DNA of 64,000 bases from Arthonia radiata. Taxonomy: Eukaryota > Ascomycota > Arthoniomycetes > Arthoniales > Arthoniaceae. Where the stretch lies: the NCBI GenBank assembly GCA_002989075.1, contig PSQN01000015.1, forward strand, positions 1,922,001 to 1,986,000, given 5' to 3'. The position numbers and the translations under genes were made by a program. Below the pieces are notes generated by a model. The model made no database searches. It was not told where the DNA came from and worked only from the letters and a program-made list of their open reading frames with translations. Shown here one piece after another: positions 37,722-61,287 of the stretch. Position 1 is the stretch's first letter. Each line of letters opens with the position of its first letter.

Positions 37722-40313
37722 CTATCTGACAAGCCGTCCCTCCTCACCCTCCTCACTACTACTCTCCTCCTCCTCACTCTCCTCATCCGTCTCCTCCTCC
37801 GTAGTCCCCTCTTCGCTCTCCTCACTCCCCTCTTCATCCTCATCCGCCAACCAATCCTCCAGATCTCTTTCCTTCACCACTGGCGGTCCTACTCTCACTT
37901 CGCCTGCACTCTTATCCAGCGTCTCGGCCGCCGGTACAGTCCTCGATCCTGAGCCGAAGCCGCTGATGCTGGGCATACCCGGGCTACTGGTCCCACCGCT
38001 CTCTCTCAACCTTGAATCGGGCTCGTGACCTGCTTCAACCCAGTCCGGGAACGCAAAGGTCTCGTACCCAGGGATGTTTTTATCACCTAATACCAATGCT
38101 GCTGAGCCCAGCTCGAGACCTTGTCGGAGCGTTGCAGGTGAGGATGTCACAGGCGGTGGTTTGGGGGCAAGGAGAAGCAGCGTGGCGAGTTGTGTGTTTG
38201 CGGCCGCTGAGGGTGGGGCGTAGGACTGCTGTTGATGCATCGTTGTTGATAGCGGAGGTGGAGGGAGTAGAGCGCGGTGCATGCGAGCGACGTCGCGGAG
38301 GGTGTAGGAGGTGTCATAGCGGATGAGGGAGTGGATGTAGGCGTATAATAATGGGATCTGACTCTGCTTTTTTTCAGGTTGGTCTGGTGTGGTAGCATCT
38401 AGCGCGGAGATATTGTCTGCGGGTGCATTTTCGGATGGTGGTGGTGGATCGGCGGGAGGGGTGGGTTGAGGTAGGTTGTTCAAGTAGTGAACGTACACTT
38501 TAGCGGCTAAGATGCAGATCTGCAACTTCACCTCCTCCGCTTCGTTGGTGAAACCACCCGCAAGAATGCGGAGAACATCCGCAGCAATGTTGCCTTTGCC
38601 GCTGTCACCGGCTGAGACCGCGCTGGACATATCGCTGCCTGCGTACTCGCCTACCAACCATACAATGGCGGCGCGCGCTTTCGGCTGAGTAGTTGTATCG
38701 AGGTCCTTAGCGAGGCGGATGACCGTGGACATGTGCTCAGTAGGGTTCGACTGGATCAAATGACGGATCTGAGTGAGGGCTTCGGAAGCTGCAGTGCCCG
38801 CCATTTCCACGTCTACTGAGGCTGGAGGGGACTTGACGTGCTCGAGCAGAAGCGAGAGACAGCGGTTCGAGGTCTTGGAGTTGGTCTGGGCGGAGAGAGC
38901 GCAGCGACCGATGCCTGATATGGCGGCGCGGAGGAGGGCAGGTGAGGTGGAAGTGTGCCGACGTGCGGCTGTGGCGAGCTCCGCGAGGATGAGTGACTGC
39001 GTATGAGATTGTGCATAGGGAAAGAGGAGGGTAAGCACTTCAAGCTTGAGAGGCGCAGTGTCGGTTGGGGAGTCGGTGGACTTGAGTAGAAAATGCCTTG
39101 TGTATGAGACCAAAGGGGCGGGGTAAAGAAGAGCGACTTGAAGAATGTTATGCAGCGCCAGTGGTGTAATTGAAGGCGTGCTGGTGGGCCGTAGGAGTGT
39201 CAGGAGCGACGGTATGGCGGAGGACAGGTAAGGAGGCGTCTGGACGCTTGAAGCTGAGGTGGGGATCTCAAGCGCGAGGTACGATCGGACGACGGCAACG
39301 ATGACAGCAGGATTGCGCGATTGTAGAAGAGGCTGGGCGGATTTGAAAAGAAGGGTGAGGTCTGGGTCTTGAAGATGGATGGTTTCATGATCATTGTTCG
39401 CTGGGGTCTTTGCAGTGTCGTCTGGCTCTTCGTAGAACGACTGCATCTTCTGCTGCTCGCGCTGATCGTCTTTTGGCGGCCCTTTGCGGATCCGTCTCGT
39501 TCGTCTTGGGAAGCAGCGTCGTGCGTAGACACCAAGCACACGCAATGCCGCACACTGACCCCAGTCGTTCATGTCGACCAGCTTCCGGCAAAGACCTCGA
39601 TACACGCCATGAAGCATGTTCACCACCTTGTCCATACCCTCTGTGGTTTCAAGCAGGCCAGTCTCAAGCAGTGCAGTGCACGCCGCCCCCACCACAATGT
39701 ACTGCCTGTCTCCCAGTAGCACGCCCATGTATCCTTCCAGCTGCGGCGACGTACTGGGGTCCAGCTTCCAGCACTTGGGGATCGCCAGCGCCGCCGTCTT
39801 TCTCACAATAGGTGACATGTCCCCTACACCTTTCTTGATCCCCAACGCAACGATCTGCGCGATTACAGGCACCCTCAGACTTGATATCGTCCGCAACGCC
39901 AATGCTCGAATGTGTGGATCCGTGGCTGATAAGGCCTTTTGTATGCTGTTGATCGCCAGCAGCGCGGTATCTTGATCTGACTCGGCATGCTTTATGAGGA
40001 TAAGGTAGACCAGCTTGCGAATGTGCGTGTTCGACGAAGTGATGTTCTTAAGAATGGTGGGAAGTAGCTGCGACGCGAGCGTAGGGTCTGCCTGACGCTT
40101 CGGTGATTGCGTGATAGTAAGGAATCGCCGCAAGCCATCGAGCACCTCGCGCTCGTGCCTACTGTTCAGCAAGGCCTTGATCTGCGGAACGGTGGTGTGC
40201 GTCGTGCCGGAAGTGGTAGGTGCTTTACGCAGGGAGGAGGTCAAGGCGGATGCGTCAAGGGTCAGGTCTCGTGTTGGCTCCAAAAGGGATGAAACTCGTG
40301 ATATAGAGTCCAT
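37722..40313 (-). CDS. APL6: AP-3 adaptor complex beta subunit
   Basis: Large beta subunit of AP-3, which sorts cargo from the Golgi to the vacuole by the alkaline-phosphatase pathway. One uninterrupted 863-codon frame. The N-terminal adaptin trunk of HEAT-like repeats is clear: VPQIKALLNSRHEREVLDGL, NITSSNTHIRKLVYLILIKH, ALSATDPHIRALALRTISSL, VIAQIVALGIKKGVGDMSPI and VRKTAALAIPKCWKLDP. A Pro-rich hinge follows (around 38,150-38,480). The C-terminus is a very acidic Ser/Glu tail typical of AP-3 beta. No obvious ear domain is seen, as expected for the fungal form. Divergent from the gene at 40679. Confidence 0.94.
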   Translation of the reverse strand: MDSISRVSSLLEPTRDLTLDASALTSSLRKAPTTSGTTHTTVPQIKALLNSRHEREVLDGLRRFLTITQSPKRQADPTLASQLLPTILKNITSSNTHIRKLVYLILIKHAESDQDTALLAINSIQKALSATDPHIRALALRTISSLRVPVIAQIVALGIKKGVGDMSPIVRKTAALAIPKCWKLDPSTSPQLEGYMGVLLGDRQYIVVGAACTALLETGLLETTEGMDKVVNMLHGVYRGLCRKLVDMNDWGQCAALRVLGVYARRCFPRRTRRIRKGPPKDDQREQQKMQSFYEEPDDTAKTPANNDHETIHLQDPDLTLLFKSAQPLLQSRNPAVIVAVVRSYLALEIPTSASSVQTPPYLSSAIPSLLTLLRPTSTPSITPLALHNILQVALLYPAPLVSYTRHFLLKSTDSPTDTAPLKLEVLTLLFPYAQSHTQSLILAELATAARRHTSTSPALLRAAISGIGRCALSAQTNSKTSNRCLSLLLEHVKSPPASVDVEMAGTAASEALTQIRHLIQSNPTEHMSTVIRLAKDLDTTTQPKARAAIVWLVGEYAGSDMSSAVSAGDSGKGNIAADVLRILAGGFTNEAEEVKLQICILAAKVYVHYLNNLPQPTPPADPPPPSENAPADNISALDATTPDQPEKKQSQIPLLYAYIHSLIRYDTSYTLRDVARMHRALLPPPPLSTTMHQQQSYAPPSAAANTQLATLLLLAPKPPPVTSSPATLRQGLELGSAALVLGDKNIPGYETFAFPDWVEAGHEPDSRLRESGGTSSPGMPSISGFGSGSRTVPAAETLDKSAGEVRVGPPVVKERDLEDWLADEDEEGSEESEEGTTEEETDEESEEEESSSEEGEEGRLVR

Positions 40314-40678
40314 TACTGGTCATGCCAGTGACGCAGCATGTGCTCGGAGCTGCTCAATGCAGATGGGATGAGGTGGATATACTGAGATCTTTATCGATAA
40401 GGGAGGTGGTGTCCATCAGGGTCTTTAACCTATCGTCATTTGTCTACCACCGTTATGCACTCAGCGATTATTTCACTTTCAAAGCCTACGCCATTTCTAG
40501 GTCGGGTGACATATTGAAGATGTCGAATGAAACGACTGGTCGGATACAGGAGTATATCCAAGAGAGATGAGGGACTTCCACCGTTTCCAACGACGGCGGC
40601 ATCACATCTGACTTGATACTCTCGATTTTGACATCTGACCAGACTCAATGCTAACTTATGCTGTGATGCCGGCATTCG
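40314..40678. promoter_or_regulatory. Divergent spacer
   Basis: A 365-bp spacer serving AP-3 beta (minus) and the unknown gene (plus). No clear motif. Confidence 0.4.
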
Positions 40679-41920: not shown

Positions 41921-43301
41921 ATGGCCAAGAACAAGAAGAATGGAGTGCAGAAGGCAATCAAGATGATGTGTACGGGTTGCGGTAAAACTGTTAAGGATAT
42001 TGAGAAGAACTGCCACGAGTGCGGTAACAGTATGGCGACGCCTTTCCTTGTCTTGTCCACGACATAACTAATAGCAATCAGAGCATCCACGGCTTCGCTG
42101 CAGCAAATGGTACTACAAAGATGGAGGCGATAAGTCCGGGAAAGGTATCCAGATTTTGTTCCACACCCACACCGGCAAAGAATGGAGCTGGGTCGAAGGT
42201 TCCCAAGACGACAAGTACGACCTCGTCTGTTCCAGCTTTCACGGCGCGATCAAAAAGCCATGCGCGAAGAAGACATGCGGAAAGTGCACAGCCGCCAACC
42301 CGCCAGCGTCCTGTAACCCCAACAGATGCAAGACGGCCGAGAGGATTATGCAAAAGGGTATAGAACGCTTGATGTTCGACACCCTGGAACCGACCGTCAT
42401 CCATGAGCAGCGCGTGGACGAAGAAGACTCTGAAGAGGATGCTGGCGGTGATGCGCATGCGCTGAAACCTTCTATACGGACGGACCTCGACGCGGGCGAT
42501 ATGGAAGAAGTGAGCGACGTCGAGGACACCGAGGACACCAAATACATTGAAATCACAAGCGAATCACCGGCGAAGCCCGCGACCACTGCGAATGCAAAGC
42601 CAGGCTTCGCACTCGGAGCTGGCGCAGGCGCTTTTGCGATTCTGATGGAAGAAGACCTGGCCGAACCCGTGCTTTCTACCGCGCCATCTACTACAGCGCC
42701 ACCAGCTAGTGCGACCAAGCCTCCGATCTTCCTCCCCTTCTCAACGCCGCCGGCAGGAATGGAGCTAGACTCCCTCTCATTGGAAGACGATGACGGGCAC
42801 AAGCTCGTGCTCAACGACCCGGCCAAGATACAGAGAGTGCTAGCAGGCATAGGAGCAGCAGCACAAGCAGAGTTCAACGGCATGATCGAGTCGAAAATGA
42901 AGTCCGCCGCCCGCGCAGCCAAATTAGCTGCAATCCAGCAGGTCGAGACCCAGCTGGCTTCGCTCGACCAGCGCTGCCGGGGAAAGCTGCAGCAGCTCTT
43001 CGACGATGGTCTGATCTCGATTCAAGATGGGCCTGAAGCGGGCAAGAGCAAGAATGGCAAGCCCCGCCCAGTGAAGGATTGGGACGGCGATAACGTGGTG
43101 CAGTATATGATGAGCACGGCGATGTCGCTGGGCGTGCGCGTGGCCAATCTTACAGACCAGATTGAGCGGCTGCAGGAGGAGAGGGAGCGCGTTAGTGTGG
43201 TAGGAGAGGAGGTGTCGTTGTTGACGAAGGAGAACCAGTTCCATACTGAGAAATTGGCTTTGCTGGTGGAGAAGAAGAAGGCTGTGGAGGCGGAGAAGTG
43301 A
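41921..43301 (+). CDS. Cysteine-rich (double Cys-cluster) protein with C-terminal coiled coil, paralogue A
   Basis: Exons 41921-42023 and 42082-43301 (58-nt intron, phase 1) give 440 residues. Cluster 1 is C17-x2-C20-x10-C31-x2-C34. A lone C41 and a beta-like segment follow (SKWYYKDGGDKSG, IQILFHTHTGKEWSWVEG). Cluster 2 is C84-x10-C95-x4-C100-x2-C103-x8-C112-x4-C117. The spacing predicts zinc binding. The middle is acidic and disordered, with an Ala/Gly-rich stretch (GFALGAGAGAFAIL). The last 130 residues are a charged coiled coil. The convergent neighbour at 43483-45292 has the same module with the same cysteine numbering. I do not recognise a named family. The intron was placed by the paralogue and by the need to join the C34 and C41 parts in frame. 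Confidence 0.82.
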
Positions 43302-43482
43302 GCATGGAGGTCTATTATACGTGCAGGCTATGGCGAGAAGGAAGCATGGAAAGTTGGGTCGATGGTCATTCAAACTGGTATCCATGCTTTCATGCTGTGA
43401 GATCAGGCAAGATCAGGCTTGCCACCACCGGCTGGACGCATCAAACCCTACCGATCCTGCCTGCTCACAATCTTGCATGCTC

Positions 43483-45292
43483 TTACTCATCATCAACGGA
43501 CTTACAAGCCCTCAGACCACTCGGCTTACGCTTTGCCTCTCCTTCCATCTCACCCTCATTTCCAGCGCGCTTGATCGCACTCTCCGCAAGTTCCTCTTTC
43601 CCCTTCTCCAGGCTCTGCAACAGACGCTTCACCGTTCTAATGCGCTCTTTTCCCATCTCCACCTCTCGCTGCGAGTCCGTCACCTTCCCGATCTCTCGTT
43701 TCAGCTCCACCAGAATTATAGCCTTCATCTCCAGTTTCGTCATCTGTTGCGTAATACTCGCCAGCTCCTCTTCCATCTTCTTACCCTCAGCGGCAACACA
43801 ATCTTTCAGCTGAACATCCGTGAACTCGTTTCTGCGTCGACGTATTTCAAGCGCGACATACTTGTCTTGATCGCACAAGTCGAATTGCGAATGGTCAAGG
43901 TATGAGTTCATGACCTGTTGCGCGACCTTGCTGCCAGTTTCAACCTTGCTCTCTAATTCTTTGAGATGTTGCGTGAGGTATATGGTCTGGGCATCGCGGG
44001 AGACGTTCTCAAGTGCCTCTTTGAGGTCAGTGTATCCGACGAGGGGCAAGTGAATGTCGACGCTTGGGTGGCCACAGAGGGTGAAGGCACTGCGGTCGGC
44101 GGTCGCACGGTCACGCGGGGGAATTTGGGGGGTGTCGTCTGGCAAGAACACGCCATTGGGCTCCAATGAGGGGGTCGAAGAGGGCGAAAGGGCACGTGGT
44201 GTCTCAGACTCGTCGACTTGTGAGGCAATGGAGTCATTGAAAGACGGCGTGTTCGAAGGGTAGAACCGGAAGACTCGGGAGACCTTGCCTTCCGTGACAG
44301 ACATGGCATCGCCAGAGTCGCTGGTATCATAAGGAGTTTGCTCGATGGGTACCGGTGTGTCGACGGGTCGCGTTCGCATCGACATTGAGGTAGGGACAGC
44401 AGGCGGAGTCTCGGCAAAGTCAACCTCGGAGGCAGCAGAGTCTGCGGCGCTCATGATAGAGAAGGAGCTGATAGAGTCGTTTGAGCCCTCACTCTTGTGC
44501 TTCGTCTCAGCAAGTGGTGAACTTGGCGAAGGAGGTAAGTCTGACGGTTGCGAAGGAGTTGGGGTTGAAGAGTCTTGGGTTTCGACTATGAATTCTGTCG
44601 CGGGACGGTCGATCGTCGTGTGCTGTGATTTGAGAGCTGCCTTGTTCTGGGAACGACGGACCAGCTGCTCAAAGTCTTTCGAGCTCAGAATATTGGCTGA
44701 GTATTGAGCATCTCTCTCGTCGATGAATTGTTTGAGGGATGCGATCTCCGTCTTTGCAAGCGCCAATTTATCAGCGTCTGTCTCCGCAGCCTTCGCATCA
44801 TGTTCCTTTGAATCAGCAGCCTCCATCTCAGCAGCAACTTTCTCACGGCTCCCCTTGATCTTCATAATGATCGTCCTCGTAACCTGCTTACACTTATGCG
44901 GATCACACGCAATCGGCGGCGGCTCCTCCGCGCACTTGGCACAATACTTGGACTCACAGGCCGTGATGCCTTTGACCCACTCGACGCAGATGAGCTTGTA
45001 CTGCCCCACAACCTGAGTCTCGGACCAGACCCAGCGAACACCCCAGCGGTTGTGGAAGGTGACGATCAGGTAGCCGTCGGAGCGGGTGACGGTGTAGTCT
45101 TGACAGCGTTCGGATGAGAGATGAGCTGTGATTTGTTAGTCTCCGGTTGTGTAGAGGGTGGCATTTCGGGGGGGGAAGCTTACGCGTCTCGCAGTCTTTG
45201 CAGGCGATCTTGTCTGCTGAGACTTCTTCTTTGCAACCTTGACAGAGGATCTGGCGGCGTGCGCGCCCGCCTCGCTCCGGAAAGCGCGCCAT
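43483..45292 (-). CDS. Cysteine-rich (double Cys-cluster) protein with coiled coil, paralogue B
   Basis: Exons 45292-45184 and 45125-43483 (58-nt intron, phase 1) give 583 residues. Cluster 1 is C17-x2-C20-x10-C31-x2-C34, at exactly the same residue numbers as paralogue A. Then come C44 and a beta-like segment with RWVWSET (compare EWSWVEG in A). Cluster 2 is C83-x9-C93-x4-C98-x2-C101-x8-C110-x4-C115. The LICVEWVKGITACESKYCAK stretch aligns with LVCSSFHGAIKKPCAKKTCG of A. A helical segment follows (KKIKGSREK-like basic, then Ala/Glu-rich), a long Ser/Pro/Thr-rich linker, and a C-terminal coiled coil. The two genes are tail to tail with 181 bp between stops. No known family recognised. Confidence 0.82.
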
Positions 45293-45721: not shown

Positions 45722-46872
45722 CTAAGCATCCCACTCGTGGACTTTCAGCATGGCGTCTTCAAGGCATTGGATTGCCAGACCAATGTTGACTGCCTCCTGA
45801 CGTCGTCGCTTCAGCTTGGCCATATTTTCCTCCACCCGACCAATATTCTTGACGGCCTTGCCGTTAGCTTTCGAGGCTGACTCTTGCAGACGCGCTCGAG
45901 TTGCATCCAGCTTATCCAGCTTTTCGTCGTATGCGGCCTGAATATAAACGTCGCTTGGGTCGCGCGTCTGCTCATTGGTTCCTGATCTGATTAATAAGTC
46001 TAGCTTCTGAGCTCCTATTTCTTGAGCTTCGCGCTTGTATTCGCGCTTCAACTTGGTGACAGACTTTTCAGCAATGAGCAGCCAAGATAGCAATTCTTGA
46101 CATGGAGCTTGTTCAAGTGCACCATTGACACTCTTGATGTAGTCGTGAAACAACACCTTCCCGAGAGTCGATGCCTACACTTAATGAGTCTGTGACAGAA
46201 GATGCGATTTTGAGTAGAGACTTACCTCAACACCGGCGCTTTGGAAATATCGAGCAGGATCAGGGACCGAAGGTGCCGAGTCGAACGGCCAGCAGCCTTG
46301 CTTATGAATTGAGCGCATTTGCCAGCCAATGTGTCTCGCGTGGTTTTTCGTGACCCAAGTCACCGCTGTGGAAGCATTAGCCAAGACCCGGATACTGCAA
46401 GGGAAATCATCCCACACACCCGTACTCTCGACAAGCGGTCCGATTGGAATGGGCTTTGCTGCAATTGCGCGGGCACGTCTCAGGATATAACAAGCTTCGC
46501 CTCCGTAGTGTGGGTCATATCGCTTGGACGCCTCTCTGATGTCACACCGGCCGCAGAGCGCAGTTGCGTCTCCGTCTCTGTGCGCTGGAGAGCACACGAG
46601 CTCGTACGCAAGAATCTCGTCGCTTTCATTTACATGCTTTCGCCACGTCCAGGGATCGCGCTGCCATCCTTCTCGCGGAATGAAAGCTCGACGGTGGAAT
46701 ACTTCGGTTTCGATTGGCGTAACTTTGCTCTCGTGATCGACACATCATCTCCACCATGCCAGCAATCGTCTTCATCATGCCCGGCTAGAGAATGATCAGC
46801 AGCTGGGAGTTCTTGGTAGATTCGCTGGAAATACCAAGCCCGCAGCAGTCGCATGATTGTTTCGTTGTACAT
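45722..46872 (-). CDS. Unrecognised spliced gene, 5' exon uncertain
   Basis: Two exons are firm: one ending at 46226 and one at 46174-45722, joined by a 51-nt intron (GTAAGT...GTAG, phase 0). The upstream exon is open back to 46744 but has no ATG, so at least one further 5' exon exists. One option is a short exon starting at 46872 (MYNETIMRLLRA) joined by an intron with donor GTATTT; another start as far as 47282 cannot be excluded. The protein has a Trp-rich part (REGWQRDPWTWRKHVNESDE), a small Cys/His patch (ELVCSPAHRDGDATALCGRC), a GACYILRRARAIAA-like helix and a C-terminal coiled coil of about 110 residues. No family is recognised. Confidence 0.55.
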
Positions 46873-47326: not shown

Positions 47327-49509
47327 TCAAGATTTCGTCCGTTCGATCTTCCTCCGCTTCGTTCGCAACTTGTCGCTCACGGCATCCTTCTGGGCATTGC
47401 TGTACTCCATCTTTTCGTACAGCGTTCGCTGCTTTCGAGACATCATCATCTTCTGTCGGTCCTTCTTCCACGCTTCATCCGCACGCTCTTTTCTCTTCTT
47501 CTCTCGTACACCCTGCTTTTGTTTCTGCGACCTGGACTGAAGGCTTTCCGCTGGCTTACCCATTGTCTCGGCCTTCAGCTCTCGTTCATAGTCTTCTGAC
47601 TCCACACCGGACTCATTGAAACCTTCGAAGTCATCTTCGTCTGCCCCTGCACCCGCGGAATGGGCTCGGTCATCTTGCTTCGCCGTATTGGCTGCAATGC
47701 CGCTGTTTTCACGATCAACAGAGCCGTTGAGATCAGCAAGCTCTTTGACGCTGTCAATACCATCTATGGAGTCTGCATCTTTGTCGTCATCCTCAACTTC
47801 TTCGCCATCGACCTCCTCATCAGACTGGATTTGTAGCTCTTCCTCTTCTGGCTCAAGCTGCTCATCATCCTCGTCCTCTTCTGAAGCAGCGTCAAGTGGC
47901 TTACTGGGGTCATACTCTCCAGCTTTTGGTTTCACAAATGGGCTGAGGTGTGGTGGCAGTGTAGTACCAGGTCCATAGTGATCCGCCCTCACTAGCTCGC
48001 AAGCGTTAACACAATCCCAGACCCACTGAGGTTGCACATAGATGCGTCCTGGGATCCTGCCGCGAACTGAGGAAGCTTTGTCGTTCTGTTCCGATGCGGC
48101 AGCGCCTTGCGAATCAGGTATCGGAGGACGGTCAACAATCTGATGTGTGATGCGCGAATCCCTCTCATCATGTGTGAATGCGCCGGCCCCTGAGATCTCG
48201 CCCCAGCCAATCCTGCTGCATCCGAATGCTTTGAGAAGAAACTCCAAGGGGCCTCGGGGTGCCTCTCGCGAAAGAAAGAAGACGAATGGCTTGAATAGCT
48301 CTGCAGCTCTCTGGGACACGGCGGAAGAGCTGATGTTTGCTACTTCGACATCATCAGCGTTATCAGCTTGACGCTTGAAGGCTGAATCAGTGGATGTGGC
48401 TGCACCACCATCAGCGTCATCTCCATCCTCAGCATCGGGTTCTGCCTCGTCAACAGCTTCGGTCGCAACTGTTGAGTCTGTTTTGGAGACTGCGTCAGCA
48501 ATGGCTTGCGCACGAGCTGTCACCTTGCTGTCGGCATGGCCGTTCTGAAGCACGTCCGCTTTTTTGCTGCCATTGAGCTCACTGATCTGACGTGACTGGG
48601 GCGTGAATGCCATGAGTGCGCCACCCTTCTCATCGCTACTGGCATTGAATTTAGGAGGATAGACAAGACCAGCGGTATTATACAGTCGATAGTTGACGAA
48701 GCCCAGTAACGTTGTGTAAAACTCCACGAAGGTACCCATGATGCGAAAGTCTATGTCGCCAGTGATTTGCTGGACGAAGGTGTAAGGGACGAGCCAGAGA
48801 ACATCTTGGCCTTGGATGGTTGCCTGACAATAGATTCCTTTGATGGACAAGAATGACTTGCGCAAACAGTGGGAGATTATCACGTAGTGTTGGAACTCAT
48901 GACAAAGTCGCTGGCACAGTCGAATGGTCTTGGCAGGTATGTTCGTGTGCGACGGTAAGTTGGCAAACAGGAAGAGCATCGACAAAGCGTCGTCTAGGTC
49001 TCGCAGCGCATCGTTGAAAGTCGGATATCGTTCTTTGACAATGTGATCAAGCGTCATCCGTGGCGCGTGCGTCCGCTCCAATCGAGCCGCATCTTTGTCC
49101 TGGCCTTTTCCAAGCGCTTTTGCGATCTTCTTCGCCAAGGCATTGTGGTCACGGAACTTGTTCAACAATGGTTCGTGCAGGAGGTATTGGATGTCTTTCG
49201 AATAGTAGAATGTGGTGCTTGGAGTCGAGTTTTTGGCGGCCTTTTGGCGGTTGCGCGGTTGTCTGGGATAGATACCTTTGAAGATGCATAGTCTGCGGAA
49301 GTCCGGTAGTGAGATCTGAAGCTTGCGTACTAAAAGACAAACCCTGATCAGCTAATCCTGGGGAAGTAGAGGGATCTAGCAAGTACCTGCTTGTGTCCTG
49401 GTCGCATGTTAGCACGTCAATAATGAGTTCACCTGGGGGACTGATTAGCTGACCTTGTGATATAGTTCTTTGCCTGACCCGAGGTCCCCTTCCTTTTGAT
49501 TTTGCCCAT
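47327..49509 (-). CDS. NOP7: Pescadillo homologue, ribosome biogenesis factor
   Basis: Nop7/Pescadillo is the BRCT-containing core of the PeBoW (Nop7-Erb1-Ytm1) complex needed for 27S pre-rRNA processing and 60S subunit assembly in the nucleolus. Exons are 49509-49454, 49397-49387 (11 nt) and 49329-47327, giving 689 residues. The joined N-terminus reads MGKIKRKGTSGQAKNYITR, TQAVRKLQISLPDFRRLCIF, KGIYPRQPRNRQKAAKN, exactly the family start; the 11-nt microexon supplies TQA and parts of two flanking codons. The Pescadillo domain continues with LHEPLLNKFRDHNALAKKIA. The BRCT domain (about residues 340-460) includes FKPFVFFLSREAPRGPLEFL and YVQPQWVWDCVNACELVRAD. The tail is acidic and then basic with coiled-coil character (KRKERADEAWKKDRQKMMMS). 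Confidence 0.95.
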
Positions 49510-50593: not shown

Positions 50594-53500
50594 ATGCCCC
50601 ACTCCAGCAAAGTAGCTCGGGATCCCCAGCCACCTGATTTTGTGACACGTCATGCCTCCCCGCCGCTTGCTCTTCCCCGTCTCACTGCGCGAAAGACTGC
50701 TCCTTTGTTCAGACCTAGTCGTCCTACTAATCGTCAAGTCAATCTCGCTCTGCTTCCAAAGCTCAATCCTGCATCCTCAGACGTCATCATCGTTGACAGC
50801 GACGAAGAAGAGTCACACATTGGAACCCGCTCTAACAGTCCGCCTGCACAGAAGTCCAGGCGAGCAACATTACGATTCAGTTCTCCACGTCAAGTATGTT
50901 CTGACAACCTGATGGCTTCGTTCTCTTCACACTGACCAAATTCCCTTCTACAAGTTCCTTCTTCACAGAACGCAGCAAATCTTCGGCTTCAACATGTCTA
51001 CTACTCCTACCGAGCTACCGGCGTCATCCTCAACGCCCGACGAACAGCCTGAGTTGAACTACCATGAACATTTCGCGAACTTTCCATCAGAACAATCGAT
51101 TAAATCTGCACTCTATCTGCGAATGAATGAATTCCAAGAGGATCATTCCCAAGATTTCTCCGAAGCACTCAAAGCGGCCCGGCTCGCCCCTCGACCGCCA
51201 CCGCACCCATGCGGTATTCCCCCAGCGCAAGATCCCTTTGCAAGCTTGCAGCCGATCGAGCGCTCCAAAGATCTCAAAGCGTGGTCGGTCACCGCCGAGC
51301 TTCCTACAGGCAAGATCTGCAAAAAAGTCAAGCCTGTCACAACCACATATAGCGCCAGCGTTGATCAGGTTCCACCCCACATCTATTACACAACATCCAA
51401 CGTCGACATCGTCACGCAAAACGATACTGAGCTTCGCTCCTACCCCGAACTTATGCAAAAGGACAGCACTGAAAAACTTGAGAAGGAACTGCTTAAACGC
51501 TACGATGACTGCAACCCAGAGACGCGCCGCAAGCATCTGCCTGAGGTCGCGAAGATGAGACAGCTACTGCCGTATTTATTCAAATTCTTCAAGGACGCTG
51601 GTGTCAGTCCCCTAGCCGTCATGCACTTCCTGCTTCGACCGCACCTCAAAGTCTACAATGGCATGCCGAAAACCATCCGCGAATGCTGGACAGACAGGAA
51701 GCGTTTCTGCTCCAAGAAACTACCGCCAGACAGCGAAGAACTCGCCGAGGATGTCCGGCGCATTTCTAAACCCACAGATCGCGACATGCTCATGGCTTGT
51801 TTCAGCTGCAAGCTCATCAAAGAAGTCTGTGATTTGCGTCTCTATCCAGCCATCGAAGAGGTGATCATGTCACAAAGCATAGGAGATGGCAATCAGACCA
51901 ACGTCGTTAATGGTAGAGCCGAGAAGCCGCATGCTCTCTCGTCCCTGGCGTTTCACGACAACTTCCAGTGTTCGATCTGCTTCACGTGAGTCCCGTGGTT
52001 GAGATTCTTTCACTTACATACATCGCTGACGATAACAGGCACGAATGTTTGGAGCACGGAGATATCCAGGAGCTCGCAGATGACACTCCCACTGACACGG
52101 AGAGTATTGAATCCGACACTCAGCCGGATGATCCTAGTGAGGGCGACAGCAACTTTCGCACTCGAATCCTCAACAACGTTGAGGCGCCTGTGAAGAAGCG
52201 CAAACTTTTAGCGTCAAGCTTCACAGAGATCAGCGAGCTGGACTGTGGGCTGACAGACGACGGAACGCTACGTGGTGCACATGAGGTCGACGACATGGAC
52301 AGTGCCGTACCTGACTCCAGCCTTTGCTCTTTAGATTGCTTTTGGAAGGTCAGTGAACACTTGTCCTGCGTGTCGCCGCCCCAATTGAGCTCTAGTTGCT
52401 AACTTCTAGCATAGATCAGCAGCCGCCAAACTGGAGATGCTGGCGAGTGGACAGATCAAGAGACCGAGCTTCTCAAGTCCTTCCTACCTGGTATGGCAGA
52501 AGACAAACGAGCGCCTTGCGCGCTGAACACAGCTCTCGGTCACACATGCGTTGAAGTGAGTTAATCCTGTCCTGTTGTTCGAATTCCTTGCTGACAGGCG
52601 TTCAGGTATTCCACAAGTCTGTTGAGCTTACCGCAGCCGGTCTCGGAACCAAGGCTGCCGGCAAATCCCCACCCCGCAAGAAGACCAAGCGCTTGACACC
52701 GACTAAGCGGAAGCAGAAGAACCCGACCAGAGACGGTTCACTTGACTGCTCCGGCAAGACAGCTGCTCGAGAAGTTTTCTACCCTTGTGATCACGAAGGT
52801 AGTTGCGAGGACGCACGCTGCTCCTGTTTCCTCAATCAGGTCCACTGCGAGAAGATATGCAACTGCTCAGGAGACTGCAAGCGCCGCTTCCTAGGCTGTC
52901 GATGCAAACAGCTGGGCAAGGCCTGCACCGACGGCAACAAATGCGCTTGCGTGCAGTGGAATCGCGAGTGTGACGCCGATCTCTGCGGCATCTGCGGCGC
53001 CGATGAGCTTCTCGACCCCATGAACCTTGACAAGGATATTGCCGCAGACGGCAAGTGCTGCAATGTTGACTTCCAGCGGCGCAGACCTAAGAACACTTGG
53101 TTTGGCCGGTCACACGTGGTTCAGAACGGCAATGGTTTGTACGCTGGCGAAGCCATCAAAGAAGGCCAGCTCATCGGTGAATACACTGGCGAGATCATCA
53201 CTACTGAGGAGGCCGACCGCCGCGGTGAGGTCTATCACGCTACCAAGAACTATCTGTTCCGTATTGGCGCTTGTGAGTACCCGCTCCATCCGCAATCCTT
53301 CCAGAGCAACCCATCACTGACATTCCATCTAGCCCTCGAACTCGACGGCAACTACATCGGCAACAAGATCCGCCTCATCAACCACGCCGGCAAGGCCGAG
53401 TTCCAGAATTGCATCTGCGTCAACAAGCTCGTCGACACCCGCACGCGCGTCGGCATCTTCGCTAAGCGCGACATCAACCTAGGCGAGGAGCTCTTCTACG

Positions 53501-53841
53501 ACTACGGGTACGCTTCCTGGGAGCATCTACAGGACTTCTACGAGAAGGATGGCAGCCGCAGCTGGGACCATGTGGTCAACAAGGACCACCGCGCGGGAGG
53601 CTCCGCCAGCAAGGGTGCAGAGCCCGAGCCCAGTGACGACGACGAGGTGCATGAGAGCGAATCCAGCAACGACCACCTCATGTCCGGTGGGCTGACCAGT
53701 GAGGATACTACGGAGGAGGCCGAAGAGGCGCCACCGCGCAGGGGACTCAAGCGCAAGGCGACGGCGCCCCCGCCGGCTGAGACAGAGGACGGTGGTAGGC
53801 GTAAGAGCGCGCGCAAGATCAAAGCCATCAAGCGGATGTGA
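50594..53841 (+). CDS. KMT6: PRC2 histone H3K27 methyltransferase, EZH2/KMT6 type
   Basis: Catalytic subunit of Polycomb repressive complex 2, which trimethylates H3 lysine 27 to silence genes in facultative heterochromatin. Exons 50594-50893, 50976-51985, 52039-52348, 52415-52555, 52606-53272 and 53333-53841 give 978 residues. A SANT-like helix lies across exon 4 (GEWTDQETELLKSFLPGM). The Cys-rich CXC domain starts near residue 648: PCDHEGSCEDARCSCF, HCEKICNCSGDCKRRFLGCR, CKQLGKACTDGNKCACVQWN. The SET domain (about 740-870) has NGNGLYAGEAIKEGQLIGEY, INHAGKAEFQNC (NH motif) and GEELFYDYGYAS. CXC plus SET is diagnostic for E(z). The last intron (60 nt) lies inside SET and has no stop. The C-tail is acidic then basic. 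Confidence 0.94.
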
Positions 53842-59839: not shown

Positions 59840-60054
59840 CGAAGGTGGTTGTAAGTTTGAGAGTTTGCATGGACGGCGTTGTCAGTATATCACGTTGGAC
59901 TAGCAGACGTGTACGATCACATGAACAGCAGCCGCAGAAGAAGGAAAATACTTTGTACAGGATGTAATTCTTATACCTGTTCCATATCAATCGGATTGGC
60001 CTTCAGATCTTGCATTCAACAGCCCCAGGCCGCGCTGGCACCAAGGACTTCCAA

Positions 60055-61287
60055 CTACGTACTTCGCGTGGTCTTCTCGAAGTCAAGTTCGGGCAAATCA
60101 CTCACCCTCCACACCGCCCTCTCCCCTCTCAACTCCCTCCCCCTCAACAACCCCATCGCCTTCTCCGCTCTCTCAAGCATACTCTTCCCATCCACTATCC
60201 TCTGCCGGTTCGGCTTCACAACCCCATCCCTCAACAACGTAGGCATAATCTCACTCTGCAGCTTCTCCTTCCATACCGGGTTTTCCAGGTAATAGTGCGT
60301 CCGCACACCCTCCACCATCACACCCTCAGCCCAAGACGCCGCAGCCACAACGTCCATAGCGTACTCCGGCAACGCATCACTGTTGGCGTCGCTATCCTTG
60401 ACAATAACAGGCAAGAGCACAGCGACCCTCGTCCCTTTCTCCGCGATCTTGGCCAATGGCGCAAGCGACCCCGATTTCGAGCCAATGCAATCCACCACCA
60501 ACGGCACCGCTGGCCCTTCGCTTCCCCTCTGGATCTCCCTCCCCATCTTCACCACCTTCCTCACCACCTCCGCATCCTTGTAATCGACACACCCCGCCGC
60601 CCCCATCTCCCTCAACACCCCATGATGCCCCTTACTCGCCACCGCAATCACGCTCTCATACCCATGAAACCGCAACACCTGCACCATGAACATCCCCGCG
60701 CTGCTCGCCGCGCCCCAAATCAATATCGGGACGCTCCACTCCCTCGGCTTACAACCTTCTGGTTTCGGCCACGGCAACTCTAACTTCAGGTTCGCGGACA
60801 GCGTATGGAACGCGGTGACGAAGTTATTCGGCAGCGTTACTACTTCCTCTGGTTTGATACCCTTCGGCAGCCTACCGACGAGGTAAGAAGGCAACGTAGA
60901 GAAGTCCTGGTGCCCCTTTTCCTTCTGCTCGCGCCAGCCGAATGAGAAGACCCAGTCGCCCACAGCTAGCGGGCGGGGCGAGCCTTGCGAGCTGTGGGGA
61001 CTAGTCGGGGCATCAGGGTCAAAGTGCGGCACCCTCGCGATCGCAGAGCCGACAGCGACGATAGGTCCGCAGACGCCATCGCCGAGGACCTGGGGTGGGG
61101 TGACGAGGAGGTGCCCGTCGTTTTGGTGGAGGTCGAGTGGGGTAGAGGCCGTGTAGCGGTTGAGGACTGTAACTTCATGGGGGCCTGGGCGGGGTGTGGG
61201 GACTGAGAGGGTGGAGAGGGGGGCTTTGGGGGCGGTGGTGACGATGGCGGTGTGGGTGGTTGGAAGAGCGAAACTGGAGGTGGACAT
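60055..61287 (-). CDS. Medium-chain dehydrogenase/reductase, zinc-independent enoyl/quinone reductase type
   Basis: Single-exon 410-residue MDR-superfamily oxidoreductase, probably NADPH-dependent. The GroES-like N-terminal part includes PRPGPHEVTVLNRYTASTPL and VLGDGVCGPIVAVGSA. The Rossmann nucleotide-binding part has LIWGAASSAGMFMVQVLRFH (Gly-rich loop), a substrate-side helix before it (LPNNFVTAFHTLSANLKL), and GHHGVLREMGAAGCVDYKDA. VPLVVDCIGSKSGSL follows. The structural-zinc cysteines of alcohol dehydrogenases are missing, which places it with the quinone or trans-enoyl reductase-like proteins common in fungi. Neighbours are unrelated housekeeping genes, so it does not look like part of a secondary-metabolite cluster. 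The substrate is unknown. Confidence 0.85.
   Translation of the reverse strand: MSTSSFALPTTHTAIVTTAPKAPLSTLSVPTPRPGPHEVTVLNRYTASTPLDLHQNDGHLLVTPPQVLGDGVCGPIVAVGSAIARVPHFDPDAPTSPHSSQGSPRPLAVGDWVFSFGWREQKEKGHQDFSTLPSYLVGRLPKGIKPEEVVTLPNNFVTAFHTLSANLKLELPWPKPEGCKPREWSVPILIWGAASSAGMFMVQVLRFHGYESVIAVASKGHHGVLREMGAAGCVDYKDAEVVRKVVKMGREIQRGSEGPAVPLVVDCIGSKSGSLAPLAKIAEKGTRVAVLLPVIVKDSDANSDALPEYAMDVVAAASWAEGVMVEGVRTHYYLENPVWKEKLQSEIMPTLLRDGVVKPNRQRIVDGKSMLERAEKAMGLLRGRELRGERAVWRVSDLPELDFEKTTRST

Follow-up and report, generated by a model that had tools for sequence, protein, structure and literature searches.

Two convergent genes, designated A and B, in the window (the whole 64,000-nucleotide stretch of DNA analyzed here, part of a 33.5-Mb genome of 16 contigs whose gene content and gene style point to a filamentous fungus) encode proteins with a common cysteine module, and comparison of the two sequences indicates that the modules are homologous. 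We consider it reasonably probable that A and B belong to a small local family of fungal intracellular proteins, each composed of the cysteine module, a charged and probably disordered linker, and a helical, probably coiled-coil tail, with the module serving as a predicted docking head. The first four cysteines of the module resemble a short zinc ribbon, and the part that would lack a name is mainly the second part of the module. Overall, A and B, with a shorter neighbor as a probable third member, look like an ordinary gene family that is so far uncharacterized.

The features of the locus are summarized in Table 1. A and B lie tail to tail with a gap of about 180 bp, and the start context of gene A is ACCACCATGGCC. 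The third-position GC of the long exon was 0.68 for A and 0.63 for B, near the values of two neighboring genes (0.56 and 0.62). A pescadillo gene (47330–49351, minus strand) is located beyond gene C, and a gene with an adaptin N-terminal region (37722–40316, minus strand) is located on the opposite flank of the cluster. Further along, a SET-domain gene (52555–53838, plus strand) showed a weak match, below the cut-off, to a fungal Ezh2-like CXC domain.

Table 1. Positions of genes A, B, and C and their parts in the window
Feature	Position	Strand	Description
Gene A	41921–43301	+	ATG at 41921; stop codon ends at 43301
Gene A exon 1	41921–42029	+	Basic N-terminus and C17-x2-C20-x10-C31-x2-C34; ends at 42023 with the 58-nt intron and at 42029 with the 52-nt intron
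Gene A intron, 52-nt alternative	42030–42081	+	Donor GTATGG; phase 1; codon 37
Gene A intron, 58-nt alternative	starts at 42024	+	Donor GTAACA; codon 35
Gene A exon 2	42082–43301	+	Lone Cys, W-x-W, six-cysteine cluster, linker, heptad-bearing C-terminal helix, stop
Gene B	45292–43483	-	ATG at 45292; stop codon ends at 43483
Gene B exon 1	45184–45292	-	First cluster, C17-x2-C20-x10-C31-x2-C34
Gene B intron	45126–45183	-	58 nt; phase 1; codon 37; donor GTAAGC; branch CTAAC
Gene B exon 2	43483–45125	-	Cys44, W-x-W, six-cysteine cluster, linker, heptad-bearing C-terminal helix, stop
Gene C, partial	46184–46744	-	W-x-W ... Y-x-L-V-C ... C-x2-C; probable third relative
Gene C 3′ exon	45722–46174	-	Probably helical; best-window heptad z 2.0

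In both proteins, the four-cysteine cluster at residues 17, 20, 31, and 34 is followed by a lone cysteine, a W-x-W segment, and C-x(9,10)-C-x4-C-x2-C-x8-C-x4-C. The subsequent cysteines are at residues 41, 84, 95, 100, 103, 112, and 117 in A, numbered with a 58-nt splice, and at residues 44, 83, 93, 98, 101, 110, and 115 in B. The W-x-W segment occupies residues 69/71 and 68/70 of A (58-nt splice) and B, respectively; with a 52-nt splice, the residues of A downstream of the intron are renumbered by +2. The cysteine spacing given in the preliminary description was found to be exact to the residue on translation. The residues common to the two modules include 11 cysteines and the invariant histidine of an F-H pair. 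We examined 264 kb for stop-to-stop ORFs of 40 or more amino acid residues and obtained 3,449; the six-cysteine spacing occurred in two of them, A and B, and C-x2-C-x10-C-x2-C occurred in three, namely A, B, and one other.

The modules of A and B were 30% identical, and their local alignment, with A in the 52-nt form, scored 153, compared with an average of 31.4 for shuffled sequences (z 23.1; 0/500 shuffles scored as high). When the cysteines were masked, the z value was 8.9 (0/500 shuffles), and the similarity of A and B therefore extends beyond the cysteines. The second part alone gave a z value of 19.1, and the first cluster alone gave 6.0, each with 0/500 shuffles. Protein searches of their own genome recovered A and B reciprocally with E values of 2.8e-8 and 4.1e-8, and no other copy was found among the best candidates listed when the 33.5-Mb genome was searched at the protein level, exon by exon. 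The proposal of an old local duplication is supported by the homology of the modules and by an intron located at, or no more than two codons from, the same place.

With the splice sites chosen in the preliminary description, both genes contain the 58-nt phase-1 intron that it reported, and the insertion point differs by two codons (codon 35 in A and codon 37 in B). In both introns, a CTRAY-type sequence, the branch motif, was read by eye 5′ of the acceptor. Gene A also has a second in-frame donor, GTATGG, six bases downstream of the first, that had gone unmentioned. Its use keeps the frame, brings the phase-1 intron to the same codon as in B, and places the fourth cysteine of A within a C-H-E-C-G-N knuckle (C-x2-C-G). 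Because the intron position then equals that of B, we lean toward the 52-nt intron for gene A.

Donor frequencies were examined in the 264 kb with a weak filter, which gave 110 GT candidates compared with 92–129 for four other dinucleotides. Candidate introns in which the third donor base was A and the fifth was G were 2.3-fold enriched (13 vs 5.6), and those with C as the fifth base were 1.4-fold enriched (8 vs 5.6). GTATG was 2.7-fold enriched (4 vs 1.5) and GTAAC 0.96-fold (1 vs 1.0), both on counts too thin to choose between the donors, and each of the two exact donors of gene A occurred once in the 264 kb, which may be gene A itself. Under a looser filter, the two donor classes gave 1.94 and 1.11, respectively, and the shorter donor sequences pointed in the opposite direction, with 0.92 for GTATG plus non-T (not enriched) and 1.62 for GTAAC.

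The similarity of A and B did not continue into their C-terminal halves. The remaining C-terminal sequences gave a z value of 0.3 (173/500 shuffles scored as well), and the tails alone gave −0.3 (291/500). Descent from a common ancestor can therefore be claimed for the module and not for the rest, and a coiled-coil scaffold inherited by both proteins is not supported, because their C-termini cannot be aligned. The tails may have diverged past recognition or may have been acquired separately. As for the claim that both proteins end in a coiled coil, the heptad test lent it modest support, with z values of 3.3 for A and 4.0 for B in the best 42-residue window, each being the best of many windows. 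A match of RP-C to full-length A (E 0.00078) was below the cut-off and located on the tail, and we read it as coiled-coil noise.

A third gene, C, adjoins B on the same strand and is likely, judging from several sequence comparisons, to be related to the modules of A and B. The local alignment of its ORF gave a z value of 4.3 against A (2/500 shuffles) and 1.9 against B (28/500). A profile of A and B scored 7.6 bits on gene C, higher than all 1,000 shuffles of gene C itself (best 5.7), and three other ORFs among the 3,449 scored higher still, at 15.6, 11.5, and 8.8 bits. The highest of these (59861–60289, plus strand; E 0.0031) contains one C-x2-C without a second pair, and its score was attributed to chance. 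Three of the 3,449 ORFs (A, B, and C) contained W-x-W, Y-x-L-[VI]-C, and C-x2-C in this order, and 200,000 shuffles of gene C yielded none. The shuffle result makes the case look stronger than it is, because the motif was composed after all three sequences had been viewed. The location of the three carriers within 5 kb was not built into the motif. In a MAFFT alignment, gene C paired with three of the six second-cluster cysteines. No two-pair C-x2-C cluster was found in the other ORFs of at least 40 amino acid residues in the 1.5 kb upstream of gene C. Used as a query against the genome, gene C matched itself and not A or B, and neither of its parts matched a Pfam family.

A, B, and C probably form a three-gene cluster. 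The convergent arrangement of A and B described earlier was confirmed; since a probable, reduced third relative lies beside B, a single inverted duplication is not the whole story. It is possible, and we suggest it only tentatively, that B and C are tandem copies, A an inverted copy, and C a decayed pseudogene. The lack of a visible first cluster in C is consistent with this history, as are two results of inspection: the frame of C contains no ATG 5′ of the residues that it shares with A and B, and between the stop that opens this frame and the F-H pair we saw no YAG acceptor. However, C retains an open frame of 187 amino acid residues and, on inspection, a plausible intron into an exon of 150 amino acid residues, its start may sit in an exon not recognized here, and it is closer to A than to B in the alignments given above.

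The view that the module belongs to no named domain was upheld by searches of Pfam, NCBIfam, and PHROGs, which yielded nothing significant or above a curated cut-off; the second part of the module matched no Pfam family in either A or B. The nearest approach was Pfam DZR, which matched the first-cluster pieces of both proteins with the first cysteine aligned to profile position 1; the E values were 0.0036 for the 44-residue piece of A (52-nt form) and 0.024 for the 45-residue piece of B, neither match reaching the cut-off. The pieces scored 14.7–17.9 bits compared with a cut-off of 27.3. DZR was listed for 52-nt A and the short pieces only, and not for full-length B or full-length 58-nt A, and unrelated families scored alike on short pieces (for example, Fn3_nematode, 0.013); the match therefore reflects similar spacing and does not make the modules members of this family. 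The N-terminal 45-residue piece of B also matched ZZ_ADA2 (0.011), DZR_2 (0.012), and zinc_ribbon_6 (0.014), all below the cut-off. A DZR search of the genome listed nine places, none of them at the A/B locus and none above the cut-off. When these nine loci were considered as relatives of A and B, the A/B profile scored 9.6 bits at best, and nothing convincing was found.

Matches in the PDB were weak. Single-sequence searches related A to manganese peroxidase (E 0.37) and B to a cilia protein (E 0.12), and the matches to BRD4 (best E 0.021, for the second part) represented many entries of one protein and were read as chance. Scans with two short peptide patterns each, which have a small reach, gave 53 and 44 pattern matches in viral contigs and 28 in prokaryote genomes, with no confirmed relative in either set. 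Titles and abstract openings in the literature pointed to no publication evidently dealing with the module. A single-sequence fold of A had a mean pLDDT of 40.6 and was of no use.

We infer zinc binding, the fold, docking, and dimerization of A and B from sequence features. The first four cysteines would most likely form one zinc-ribbon site, and the second cluster would be expected to bind at least one further zinc, beside a short beta hairpin that bears F-H and W-x-W. Once folded, the module would serve as a docking head to which a protein, or possibly RNA or DNA, binds; nucleic acids are suggested because basic residues precede the ribbon. The coil of the tail would pair chains. An unlikely alternative is that the cysteines are redox-active or disulfide-bonded and do not bind zinc. 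Eleven shared cysteines are an odd number for four-cysteine sites alone, as this alternative might lead one to expect, but A and B begin with basic residues that on inspection are not signal-like, and C-x2-C pairs at zinc-ribbon spacing usually bind zinc. A further reading, which we regard as doubtful, is a new fungal module that would hold three metals and would have given rise, at this locus, to three genes whose tails are unrelated. The 11 cysteines and the F-H histidine would provide 12 ligands, enough for three predicted zinc sites: the ribbon, a four-cysteine site, and a mixed site of the lone cysteine, the histidine, and two second-cluster cysteines.

A relationship of the module to the chromatin reader ADD (GATA-like plus PHD), with recognition of histone tails, is very unlikely. 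Residues 5–40 of A in the 58-nt form matched ADD_ATRX with an E value of 0.057 (13.7 bits), the 44-residue piece in the 52-nt form did so at 0.016 (15.4 bits), and the order of cysteine finger, second cluster, and helix is compatible with such a reader. Both scores were, however, lower than the curated cut-off (25.7 bits), B had no ADD_ATRX match listed, and the second part of both modules, as noted, returned no family. If the second part of the docking head that we favor is a real unnamed fold, it would add one more domain to the fungal zinc modules and provide a small, testable local family in which the heads are conserved and the tails are not. Otherwise, A and B, and possibly C, would be an ordinary uncharacterized gene family.

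The module can be compared with three known types of zinc-binding unit. RanBP2/NZF fingers have the four-cysteine spacing C-x2-C-x10-C-x2-C, with a Trp before the first cysteine and an Asn after the second, between the pairs. It is quite unlikely that the module is a divergent ubiquitin- or RNA-binding finger of this type joined to an unrelated domain. The spacing is the same in A and B, and B matched a 35-residue chain of RNF31 (E 0.19), which we take to be its NZF finger; however, the defining Trp and Asn are absent from both A and B, and no RanBP family was listed for either protein at E values up to 10, in a search with filters that discard most matches weaker than about E 0.1. The L40e/eL40 ribosomal zinc ribbon likewise has the same four-cysteine spacing and a basic N-terminus before it. 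When the PDB was searched with the whole-module profile, an archaeal L40e chain ranked first (E 0.082, not significant), but this chain is 51 residues long and could not accommodate the second cluster or the tail. Pfam DZR and Zn_Ribbon_1 (PF12773 and PF13240) have C-x2-C-x10-C-x2-C in common with A and B, and resemble A in the G that follows the second cysteine and, with the 52-nt intron, also the fourth. Unlike DZR, A and B have one ribbon of the double-ribbon unit, together with a second cluster that is spaced differently.
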